Part shown: piece by piece, positions 33,277 through 39,782 of the stretch | How positions within the stretch are numbered: the stretch's first letter is position 1 | How the letters are laid out: each line of letters starts with the position of its first letter | Assembly (NCBI GenBank): GCA_002085155.1 | Contig: NASX01000018.1 | Coordinates: 1 to 64,000, forward strand | Source of the DNA: Sorangiineae bacterium NIC37A_2 | Lineage (GTDB): Bacteria > Myxococcota_A > Polyangia > Polyangiales > Polyangiaceae | Direction of reading: 5' to 3' | DNA: 64,000 nt | Translations under genes and position numbers: made by a program | Notes under the pieces: model-generated | The model's database searches: none | The model's input: the letters and a program-made list of their open reading frames with translations, nothing else | Told to the model about the DNA's origin: nothing

Positions 33277-33759
33277 TCAGTCCTTCTGGAGTCCGTCGAG
33301 GATTCGGTCGACGTCCGCAAGGGTTAGATTCTCGTGATAGACCTTGTCGACCTGCATCATGGGTGCGGAGCCACAGGAAGCGAGACACTCAGCGGTGCGG
33401 AGCGTGATCTTGCCGTCTTTGGTCGTCTCACCGACGTGGATGCCGAGACGCTTCTCACAGTGTTTGAGTACTGTGTCAGCGCCGCGCAGAGCGCAGGAGA
33501 GCGTGTGGCACACCCAAACTTGGTGCTTGCCGGGCTTCTCGCGATTGAACAGGTGATAGAAGGTCGCAACGCCTGTCACGTGTGCAGTGCTGAGCTCGAG
33601 GCGCGAAGCCACGAAAGCGATCACTTCCTCGCTCACCCAGTTCTCGTTCGCCTCTTGGCAAAGGTGCAAGGCTGGGATGCACGCAGCCATCTTGTTGGGG
33701 TAGCGCGCAAGAATTTCTTGGAACTTGCTCTCCTGCTCCGCGCTGAGGGCAAACGTCAT
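33277..33759 (-). CDS. nuoE: NADH-quinone oxidoreductase subunit E (2Fe-2S)
   Basis: A 160-aa thioredoxin-fold subunit with the N1a 2Fe-2S cluster. Ligands are Cys84 and Cys89 (VCHTLSCALRG) and Cys125 and Cys129 (AECLASCGSAP). ATG 33759 gives the normal length; an earlier start at 33801 adds 14 residues with no support. It is the first gene of a minus-strand cluster nuoE-F-J-K-L-M-N. The subunits for quinone binding and the Q-module (NuoB, C, D, H, I) and NuoG, NuoA are not in the window and must lie elsewhere. Confidence 0.95.
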   Translation of the reverse strand: MTFALSAEQESKFQEILARYPNKMAACIPALHLCQEANENWVSEEVIAFVASRLELSTAHVTGVATFYHLFNREKPGKHQVWVCHTLSCALRGADTVLKHCEKRLGIHVGETTKDGKITLRTAECLASCGSAPMMQVDKVYHENLTLADVDRILDGLQKD

Positions 33760-34097
33760 GGTACTCCAGGTTTCCGTCGTAGAGCGATCCCGGAGCAGCA
33801 AAAGCGCCGACTCGGGGCTCTGGGCGGCCCGAACCGTAGTGACCGGGTCGATTCTGTGTCAAGCCCGCGCCGCGTCTCACGGATCGATCCCGCCGCCCAG
33901 CTTCATGAACCATTTCGGGCAGGTCGTGAGGCCCGCCTGGGCTCGCCCTGCCAGCGGCTCGAAGGGCCTTTCAGCGATGTGGCCGGCCCGAGCCGTCAAG
34001 CTCGAGCGGAGACAGATGATGCTTGTGAAATGCAGTAACCCTCGTGTACGCTCGGGCTGGCTCATTAGTTGAGAGCACGGAAGGACCAGCGTACCGC
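33760..34097. other. 338-bp gene-free region between nuoE and the zinc-ribbon gene
   Basis: This divergent intergenic stretch holds the candidate nuo promoter on the minus strand. On the plus strand, TTGTGA around 34024 and TACGCT 18 bases later form a weak promoter-like pair for the zinc-ribbon gene. Reading frames here are short and lack protein-like character. No terminator or repeat was seen. Confidence 0.5.
33833..33862 (-). promoter_or_regulatory. Candidate sigma70-type promoter for the nuoE-N cluster
   Basis: On the minus strand, a consensus TTGACA (33857-33862) is followed after 18 bases by TACGGT (33833-33838), a moderate -10 match. Transcription would begin near 33826, leaving a leader of about 67 bases to the nuoE start. 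It is the only strong -35 hexamer noticed in this gap. Not tested. Confidence 0.4.
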
Positions 34098-35078
34098 GTG
34101 TTTTGTCCGAATTGTGGGAGCAAGAACGAAGACGGCGCGCCGCGCTGCGCGCAGTGTGGGTTTGAACTACAAACGGGAAAGCCCGCCCCGCGATTCAAAG
34201 GCACGATGGTGATGCAGTCTCCTGTGCCCGCGGCGGCCCCGGGCGCAGGGATCAACGCGCCTGCCTCCCCCGCGAGGACCCCCTCGGCCCTGAAGGGGAC
34301 GATGGTCGGCGTTGCCCCCCCTGGGATGGATGACCTGCGCAAGCAGATCGCCGAAGCTCGTCAGAACCCGGCGGCCGCTGCGACTCCGGCCCCCGCTCCC
34401 GCTGGTCCCTCGAAGCTCAAAGGGACGATGATCGGTCTCGCCCCGCCCCATTTGGCGGGTGGCGATCTCCAGCCGACCTTACTCGGCGTCGCTCCCCCTG
34501 GCTCCGATGCGCCCCCAGCCGCGGCCCAGCAGCCAGTTCAGACCCCTCCCACCGAGCCCGCGCCCATGCCGAGTCGCCTCAAGGGCACGATGGTCGGCGT
34601 CGCTCCGCCGGATCTCGGGAACGTTCAGTCCCCCGATGCCTTTGGTGGAACTCTCATGGCCGGCGCGACAGCGCCCATGGCCGCGATCCAGCCTCAGTTT
34701 GAGGCTCCGGCGACTTCGGCCACCGAGCCGAGTCCCCCGCCCACCGAGCCTCCCCAGGCCGGTGGTTCTGGCTTCCCCGGCGCTTTCCCCACCGCGCAAG
34801 AGGCCTTGCGCCCGGCCCGAGTTCCGGAAGTGGGCGGAGTGGGGGGACCCCGTTATCCGATCAGCGACACTGCCTCCAGCCTCTCCGCCACGACGAAGGC
34901 CACCTCGAGTCAGCTGCCGATCCTGCTTCTCATCGGCCTCATCGTGATCCTCACCCTCGCGCTCGTTGCCTTCGGCTTCGTGATGCGCGGAGACGACGAG
35001 GAGACCGAGGCCGCTCCCTCCCCCAGCGAGCCCGCCGCCGCTCCCGCCGAGCCCGGTTCCGCGGAGCCGGCTCCGTAA
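34098..35078 (+). CDS. Zinc-ribbon membrane protein with repeated KGTM(V/I)G motif
   Basis: A 326-aa protein starting at GTG 34098, which places the zinc ribbon FCPNCGSKNEDG ... CAQCG at the very N-terminus (Cys3, 6, 17, 20) as usual for this class; GTG 34044 would add 18 residues. A Pro/Ala-rich low-complexity region of about 230 residues carries a short motif: KGTM at 34, 66, 108 and 162, three of the four followed by (V/I)G(V/L)APP, plus two degenerate copies (PTLLGVAPP, GGTLMAG). One transmembrane helix lies at about 272-296, followed by an acidic Pro/Ala tail. The motifs would face the cytoplasm if the zinc ribbon does. The function is unknown; the motif may be a docking or phosphorylation site. 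Confidence 0.8.
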   Translation: MFCPNCGSKNEDGAPRCAQCGFELQTGKPAPRFKGTMVMQSPVPAAAPGAGINAPASPARTPSALKGTMVGVAPPGMDDLRKQIAEARQNPAAAATPAPAPAGPSKLKGTMIGLAPPHLAGGDLQPTLLGVAPPGSDAPPAAAQQPVQTPPTEPAPMPSRLKGTMVGVAPPDLGNVQSPDAFGGTLMAGATAPMAAIQPQFEAPATSATEPSPPPTEPPQAGGSGFPGAFPTAQEALRPARVPEVGGVGGPRYPISDTASSLSATTKATSSQLPILLLIGLIVILTLALVAFGFVMRGDDEETEAAPSPSEPAAAPAEPGSAEPAP

Positions 35079-38153: not shown

Positions 38154-39782
38154 TTAATCCTGGAGGATCGAGAACTCGATGCGGCGATTCCGCTGACGAC
38201 CCGCGGCCGTTGCGTTGTCTGCGATCGGGAGATCGGGACCGGCGCCGTAGATCGAGAGCTGCGACTCGCTCACGCCCTGAGCCACGAGGAAGTCCTTGAC
38301 CGACTGAGCGCGCTCCGTCGAGATCTTCAGGTTCTGCTCGCGCTCACCTTGGTCATCGGTGTGACCCGTGATGCGCACGCGCAGATCGGGGTAGGACTTG
38401 AGAACAGCGGCGGCTTCGCGCAGAAGCGGCTCCGACGCCTTCTTGATCTTCGCGCTCCCGAAGTCGAACTCGATGCCCTTGATGACACCGACGAACTTGG
38501 TGACCTTCTCGGGGATCACGTCGGGGCAACCGTCCTCATCATCGAGGCCATTTTTGGTCTCGGGCTGCGTCGGGCACTTGTCCACGGAGTCCGGGATTCC
38601 ATCGCCATCCTGATCGTGGACGACACAACCAGTGATCGTGCGAGCAGGCTCGTTCGGGCATTCGTCGACAGAGTCGATGAGGCCGTCACCGTCGGTGTCT
38701 TGGATGGGGCAGATCTTCTCGGGGCATCCGGAGGGTGCCGGACCTGCCTCCTCGGGGCACGGATCGCGCAGATCGATGATGCCGTCGCCATCGCTGTCGG
38801 GGCATCCGGTCGGCGCGATGCCGGGAGCGTCCACGCACTCGTCGACGTCGTCCGCAACACCGTCACCGTCCGTGTCAGGCGGAATGGGGATGCACCCACG
38901 GTCCGTACCGGCCACGGTCGGGCACTCATCCTGGTAGTCGAGGAATCCATCCCCATCCAGGTCAGGGCGCTTGCGCGTGGGCACGAAGGTGATGCCGAGG
39001 AGAATCTCGGGAGAGTGCGCACCAGAGCCGGAGCCCGCGTCGTACTTCCTCGAGACCACGTCACGCACATCGAGACGGAGCGAAAGGTGCTCGTCGAGAG
39101 CAGCCTTCACGCCAGCGCCGAAGTGGAACGCGTCGTCGTCATCGTTGCCCATCTCGTTGCTGCTCGCACCGAGCACACCACCACCGACGAGGGCGAAGGG
39201 GGTGATGCTCGAGCCAGGAATCTGAAGGATGGCGTGACCGCGCACGGTCCAGAGCGTGGCTTCCGTACCGTCTTCGACAGCCGTCGGCATCAGCGCAGCT
39301 TCCGCTTCGACACCGAGGAAGGTGAGCGGGAAGAAGGCAACGCGAGCGCCAACTTCACCGGCCAGCTTGAACGGACGCTGATCCGCGAGCGGAAGACTCG
39401 GGGCGTAGAGCTGGTGATCGTTGGCGGGGAACATGAGGCCGCCGTAGAGCCCGAGCTCCCACATCAGGGGTTCGGGGACGTAGCGCTTCATGTACGGGAT
39501 GTTCTTCGGTCCCGTGCGATCCGAAGTTGCATCGGAGGCCTCGACCGCCGGGGCGGGCTCAGTTTCTTCCGCGGTCGTGAGAACACGAGCTTCCGCTTCA
39601 GGTCCTGCGCCGAGCGTCACTGCTGCGCGCGCCTCGGCCTTCGGCTCTGCGTCAGCCTCGGGAGCGGCTTCGGCCACCGGCGCGGCGCTGGCCTCTTCCG
39701 GTGCGGGATCGGCTGCAAGGGCAGGGCTCGTAACGAGCGCCAGAGTCACCACTGCATTCTTGAGAATCAAAGTGTCTTTCAT
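38154..39782 (-). CDS. OmpA-family outer membrane protein with thrombospondin type 3 repeats
   Basis: A 542-aa protein. Signal peptide residues 1-23 (cleavage after PALA); Ala/Glu/Pro-rich linker about 24-90; a beta-barrel-like region about 107-268; then five or six calcium-binding TSP3 repeats (DxDGDGxxDxxD with CP/GC pairs) at 273-420. The C-terminal OmpA domain (425-540) contains ITGHTDDQGEREQNLKIS and RQRNRRIEFSI, the peptidoglycan-binding residues. It likely tethers the outer membrane to the cell wall, the repeats forming a rigid stalk. It is followed by the bidirectional terminator and lies 28 bp downstream of the DUF481 gene. Confidence 0.93.
   Translation of the reverse strand: MKDTLILKNAVVTLALVTSPALAADPAPEEASAAPVAEAAPEADAEPKAEARAAVTLGAGPEAEARVLTTAEETEPAPAVEASDATSDRTGPKNIPYMKRYVPEPLMWELGLYGGLMFPANDHQLYAPSLPLADQRPFKLAGEVGARVAFFPLTFLGVEAEAALMPTAVEDGTEATLWTVRGHAILQIPGSSITPFALVGGGVLGASSNEMGNDDDDAFHFGAGVKAALDEHLSLRLDVRDVVSRKYDAGSGSGAHSPEILLGITFVPTRKRPDLDGDGFLDYQDECPTVAGTDRGCIPIPPDTDGDGVADDVDECVDAPGIAPTGCPDSDGDGIIDLRDPCPEEAGPAPSGCPEKICPIQDTDGDGLIDSVDECPNEPARTITGCVVHDQDGDGIPDSVDKCPTQPETKNGLDDEDGCPDVIPEKVTKFVGVIKGIEFDFGSAKIKKASEPLLREAAAVLKSYPDLRVRITGHTDDQGEREQNLKISTERAQSVKDFLVAQGVSESQLSIYGAGPDLPIADNATAAGRQRNRRIEFSILQD

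Follow-up and report, generated by a model that had tools for sequence, protein, structure and literature searches.

A threonine-centred short motif in a zinc-ribbon membrane protein encoded beside nuoE in Polyangiales-type myxobacteria: a probable common site of docking or phosphorylation

In a 64,000-nucleotide stretch of the genome of Sorangiineae bacterium NIC37A_2 (GCA_002085155.1, contig NASX01000018.1, positions 1–64,000; the window), the gene at 34098..35078 on the forward strand encodes a protein in which a short motif, KGTM[VI]G[VL]APP, recurs between a zinc ribbon and a membrane helix. An initial annotation, made from the sequence alone, had proposed that the copies are docking or phosphorylation sites. 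Is the motif more than a feature of this one protein, and what might bind it? Myxobacterial kinase repertoires are among the largest of bacteria, with substrates and readers that are largely unknown, and to our knowledge few short linear motifs are common to unrelated bacterial proteins. Literature searches found no published description of the motif or of the protein family.

The gene was a true open reading frame with a product of 326 amino acids, as read from the open reading frames of the window. The start was placed at the GTG at 34098 because 79 of 80 relatives had GTG, TTG or ATG immediately ahead of FCP. From the N- to the C-terminus, the product consisted of a zinc ribbon (FCPNCG..CAQCGFEL; 34098..34172, +), a Pro/Ala-rich linker of approximately 240 residues, a single transmembrane helix (residues 273–297; 34914..34988, +) and a short acidic/Pro-Ala tail. 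The ribbon (CxxC-x(10)-CxxC) matched Zn_Ribbon_1 (PF13240) with an E-value of 4.9e-7 and 29.8 bits, above the Pfam cut-off of 25, and hydropathy indicated one hydrophobic helix, which confirmed the annotation as a zinc-ribbon membrane protein. In an AlphaFold2 model built with 33 relatives, confidence was high for the ribbon (pLDDT approximately 90) and the helix (approximately 94) only. All motifs fell in a low-confidence, presumably disordered stretch, in agreement with their annotated placement in a disordered Pro/Ala region. A location inside the folded ribbon was unsupported, as motif 1 and all copies of motif 2 (defined below) had low pLDDT values. A PDB sequence search with the protein returned no relative.

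KGTM occurred four times in the protein, with copies starting at residues 34, 66, 108 and 162. The last three were full copies of KGTM[VI]G[VL]APP (motif 2), detected in the sequence and in motif scans: KGTMVGVAPP (copy a; 34293..34322, +), KGTMIGLAPP (copy b; 34419..34448, +) and KGTMVGVAPP (copy c; 34581..34610, +). The copy at residue 34, RFKGTMVMQSP, had only KGTMV in common with the others. It contained motif 1 (RFKGTMVMQ; 34191..34217, +), which was predicted to be disordered, lay at a near-fixed distance from the ribbon and appeared as KFKGTM(L/M)M in relatives. There were also two degenerate copies, QPTLLGVAPPG (QPTLLGVAPP at 34473..34502, +), read in the sequence, and GGTLMAGATAP, which was assigned to motif 3 (GGTLMAGAT; 34647..34673, +) by comparison with relatives, where it took the form PLGGTM(V/A)(A)D. 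Of the four near-identical and two degenerate motifs initially counted, the degenerate pair and three of the four were therefore retained. The spacing had been described as regular, but the starts were uneven, and spacing was not conserved in relatives either. When the linker was shuffled 200,000 times with its composition kept, only nine of the shuffles contained the core TM[VIL]G[VILM]AP, each a single time, compared with three times in the real linker. A recent DNA repeat or tandem expansion was ruled out because the three copies of motif 2 differed at silent codon positions.

The genomic place of the gene was conserved. The divergent neighbour nuoE, which encodes a complex I subunit (33277..33801, −; PF01257, E 2e-51) and is conserved across the order, adjoined the gene in 67 of the 75 relatives for which sufficient sequence was available, as in the window, whereas ychF on the opposite flank was kept in only 20 of 52. 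A search profile comprising the ribbon and motif 1 gave a full-length match, among the matches listed, in 58 of 71 genomes of the order and in 1 of the 306 other genomes of the phylum. The family is almost confined to the order (Polyangiales-type myxobacteria), with Polyangium, Sorangium cellulosum, Minicystis rosea and Labilithrix among the named relatives. The sole full match outside the order came from a draft genome (G270), where it lay on a contig of 3,167 bases, and may be contamination.

Residues 1–39 of the window protein, the ribbon followed by [KR]F[KR]GTM, matched the family model A1 at 1e-20. The ribbon and KFKGTM(L/M)M were present in all orthologues, and KLKGTM-x-G-V-APP and PLGGTM in most, so that a typical orthologue had one each of KFKGTMLM, KLKGTM-x-GVAPP and PLGGTM-x-AD. 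The comparison of relatives thus upheld the expectation that the motif is kept in orthologues. More distant families retained motif 1, with the later motifs in other forms. The middle motif was tripled in the genus of the window, and a sister species (L010/L142) also had three copies in the same order. One orthologue (L016 in genome G052) contained three extra Thr-centred repeats, GRTEAFxAP-like, in the same linker. Between the motifs, the length and sequence of the linker varied freely, while the motifs were kept with silent codon changes. The C-terminal membrane module varied as well: 6 of 33 scanned members had DUF4234 and 4 had TM2/CD225, the rest having other hydrophobic regions or a single helix. 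None of these modules (PF14018, PF05154, PF04505) was matched by the window protein. In two g12 genomes (L229 in G054, L230 in G013), a ribbon and a hydrophobic C-terminal module still lay beside nuoE, but the motif region has undergone a natural deletion. In one of them the linker and motifs were gone, and the second kept only the remnant RRAATVMMGESP, so that the motif is dispensable in these genomes.

Enrichment of the motif beyond chance had been set beforehand as a test, and it was observed. The strict pattern AARGGNACNATGNTNGGNNTNGCNCC gave 68 matches in 55 of the 183 genomes of the order, and the same pattern read backwards gave none. In 377 genomes of the phylum, the slightly different pattern T-M-phi-G-phi-A-P-P had 40 matches versus 2 in the control; the 40 were spread over 26 genomes, 22 of them from the same order. 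Two matches outside the order (L106, L130) were wrong-frame or extracellular and were put down to chance. In the genome of the window, the strict pattern fell in the window gene alone, and a single two-mismatch match was located in a zinc-ribbon beta protein (L009). The zinc-ribbon look-alikes of this genome, two kinases (L003, L004) and a ribbon-FHA protein (L002), lacked the motif.

Outside the orthologue family, the motif was found in linkers, usually ahead of a membrane helix. The carriers included protein kinases (L134, L225), MJ0042-ribbon TPR proteins (L099, L102, L103, L226), a PEGA protein (L105), a response-regulator/TPR protein (L108), zinc-ribbon beta proteins (L009, L062, L109, L131) and others. 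A GltJ/AgmX-like protein with an MJ0042 ribbon and GYF (L224; matches to PDB 7z3c and 7zok) contained KTTMLGIAPP shortly before its helix. These comparisons show a conserved short linear motif that selection at the protein level maintains in orthologues and that recurs among unrelated signalling proteins of the lineage. The first observation was largely right, and stronger than the sequence alone could show, with the spacing and copy count corrected. A second zinc-ribbon family (L009, L037, L062, L077, L079, L085, L109, L131) had motif repeats, often in the variant T-x-L-G-V-A-R-P-G-I-A-P, followed by one helix and then beta-rich domains. A similar C-terminal IVRxxPF ending was observed in two unrelated motif proteins, L222 and the kinase L225.

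The central threonine was examined by leaving its codon open in the scan, with the same bases demanded at all other positions as in the strict scan. This yielded 69 sites (68 in the strict scan), of which 67 had Thr, 2 had Asn and none had Ser or Ala. In orthologues, this invariance is partly due to shared descent. In 15 motif proteins outside the family, unrelated or distant, the open scan gave Thr in 29 of 29 linker copies, and for about half of these the protein had been detected through another copy; Ser was slightly more common than Thr in these proteins (0.064 versus 0.055). Lys or Arg usually stood one or two residues upstream of the motif Thr. Insistence on Thr over Ser is a behaviour of FHA domains. 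The residue at position +3 from the Thr was Met or Leu in motif 1 and Gly in motif 2. The FHA ligand of Bdellovibrio DgcB is LEK-pT-SIVAS, with the Val at +3 as a key hydrophobic contact (PMC6733907). Motif 1 (T-M-L-M) would fit this ligand, and motif 2, with its Gly at +3, would fit less well.

The genome of the window had 64 kinase and 33 FHA domain matches. FHA matches numbered 29–48 in ten genomes with the motif or module versus 21–27 in eight without, and kinase matches at least 57 in genomes with the module versus 33–58 without (some counts being lower bounds), which is weak evidence because these differences are confounded by relatedness and genome size. One protein of the same genome (L002, genome G000, contig C30) carried a pair of zinc ribbons and, after them, a pair of FHA domains, and is a candidate reader of phosphothreonine motifs.

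Since the motif is reused in unrelated proteins, which was our main argument, a shared partner is proposed, and the motif probably serves these proteins as a common site of docking or phosphorylation. We give about an even chance to a membrane-tethered cytoplasmic adaptor whose Thr-centred motifs dock this partner, most likely after Thr phosphorylation and through FHA domains. The zinc ribbon would be an N-terminal folded head, and the helix, or the DUF4234 or TM2/CD225 module in relatives, would be the anchor. In between, the disordered linker would display the Thr-centred motifs, [K/R]-x(0-1)-T-M-[VIL]-G-[VLM]-A-P and two related forms, for binding to one shared cytosolic partner. More tentatively, Hanks-type kinases may phosphorylate the Thr and FHA domains may recognise it, and several membrane proteins might in this way be gathered under kinase control. 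The three copies of motif 2 in the genus of the window would raise avidity. The exchange of the anchor module, with the ribbon and motifs persisting at one conserved place beside nuoE, was counted in favour of the adaptor. The initial proposal of docking or phosphorylation sites is plausible and consistent with the disorder, the invariant Thr that is never Ser, the upstream Lys/Arg and the kinase and FHA matches, but less so with the Gly at +3 of motif 2, unlike DgcB.

This Gly also bears on docking without phosphorylation, a competing explanation that we regard as possible and to which we give about a third of the weight, compared with about half for phosphothreonine docking and the remainder for a function connected with complex I or the absence of any binding function. 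Here, a hub would bind T-phi-phi-G-phi-A-P directly, with the peptide acting as an extended strand or Pro motif; candidate hubs include GYF domains, TPR proteins and small GTPases. The Gly at +3 and the hydrophobic residues at +2 and +4 were as conserved as the Thr in the collected sites, a weak argument since the searches fixed those positions. APP is typical of Pro recognition, and its conservation could equally mark a Pro-recognition site. The nearest model is the GltJ/AgmX switch protein, which is reported to interact with MglA-GTP at a site adjoining its zinc finger. The strict motif occurred in the GltJ-like protein bearing an MJ0042 ribbon and GYF domains, and GltJ is named among the MglA effectors in a review (PMC12288465). 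However, simple hydrophobic or Pro binding needs neither a Thr that is never Ser or Ala nor an upstream basic residue.

Two further explanations were considered. It is unlikely that the motif is lineage-specific inherited sequence that drifts in low-complexity linkers and has no role in binding. Most matches were indeed orthologues at one place, and the g12 pair kept its ribbon and membrane module there with the motifs absent or reduced; but motifs held with silent codon changes amid freely varying linker, the same motif in unrelated proteins and the phylum-wide excess over the control speak against drift. A role in the assembly or placement of the adjacently encoded NADH dehydrogenase seems quite improbable. 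The constancy of divergent nuoE, far greater than that of ychF, speaks for it, yet adjacency is explicable by a shared promoter or vertical inheritance, several members of the order had nuoE without a detectable neighbour of the family, and the same motif occurred in proteins without an evident respiratory link.

The proposed phosphothreonine-docking adaptor resembles several known systems in part. Like GltJ/AgmX of the myxobacterial gliding machinery, it has an N-terminal zinc ribbon, a long disordered Pro/Ala cytoplasmic linker and a single membrane helix. GltJ, however, has an MJ0042-type ribbon (PF13717) and a GYF domain; neither was found in the window protein, whose ribbon is of the PF13240 type. 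With FHA ligands (the DgcB tail, the GarA/OdhI tails) it shares a Thr-centred short motif in disorder with a hydrophobic residue at +2, and with DgcB also a Lys just upstream. It differs from them in the Gly at +3 of motif 2, the conserved A-P-P tail and the lack of an FHA domain, and its phosphorylation is putative. Orthologues at the same place have the DUF4234 or TM2/CD225 modules of other zinc-ribbon proteins behind the same ribbon and motifs, whereas the window protein has a single helix matching none of them. Three Polyangiales proteins with an MJ0042 ribbon, a helix and TPRs (L099, L103, L226) likewise have one or two motif copies between ribbon and helix, but their ribbon family differs and a large TPR domain follows the helix.

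As the motif is present in kinases, gliding proteins and scaffold proteins, it provides a concrete bait peptide for a reader, for example KLKGTMVGVAPP, and the proteins that carry it are ready candidates for acting together. A wider possibility, which we consider doubtful, is that T-M-phi-G-phi-A-P is a lineage-wide docking code. Through it, a single reader, either an FHA protein or MglA or another small GTPase, would gather kinases, GltJ-like gliding proteins, TPR scaffolds and the window adaptor at the inner membrane. The family also illustrates membrane-module exchange at a fixed genomic place, with a small ribbon and a few linker residues persisting. Elsewhere in the window, the gene at 38154-39782 (−) encoded a protein with an OmpA domain and thrombospondin type 3 repeats, which also gave a weak match to a beta-barrel.
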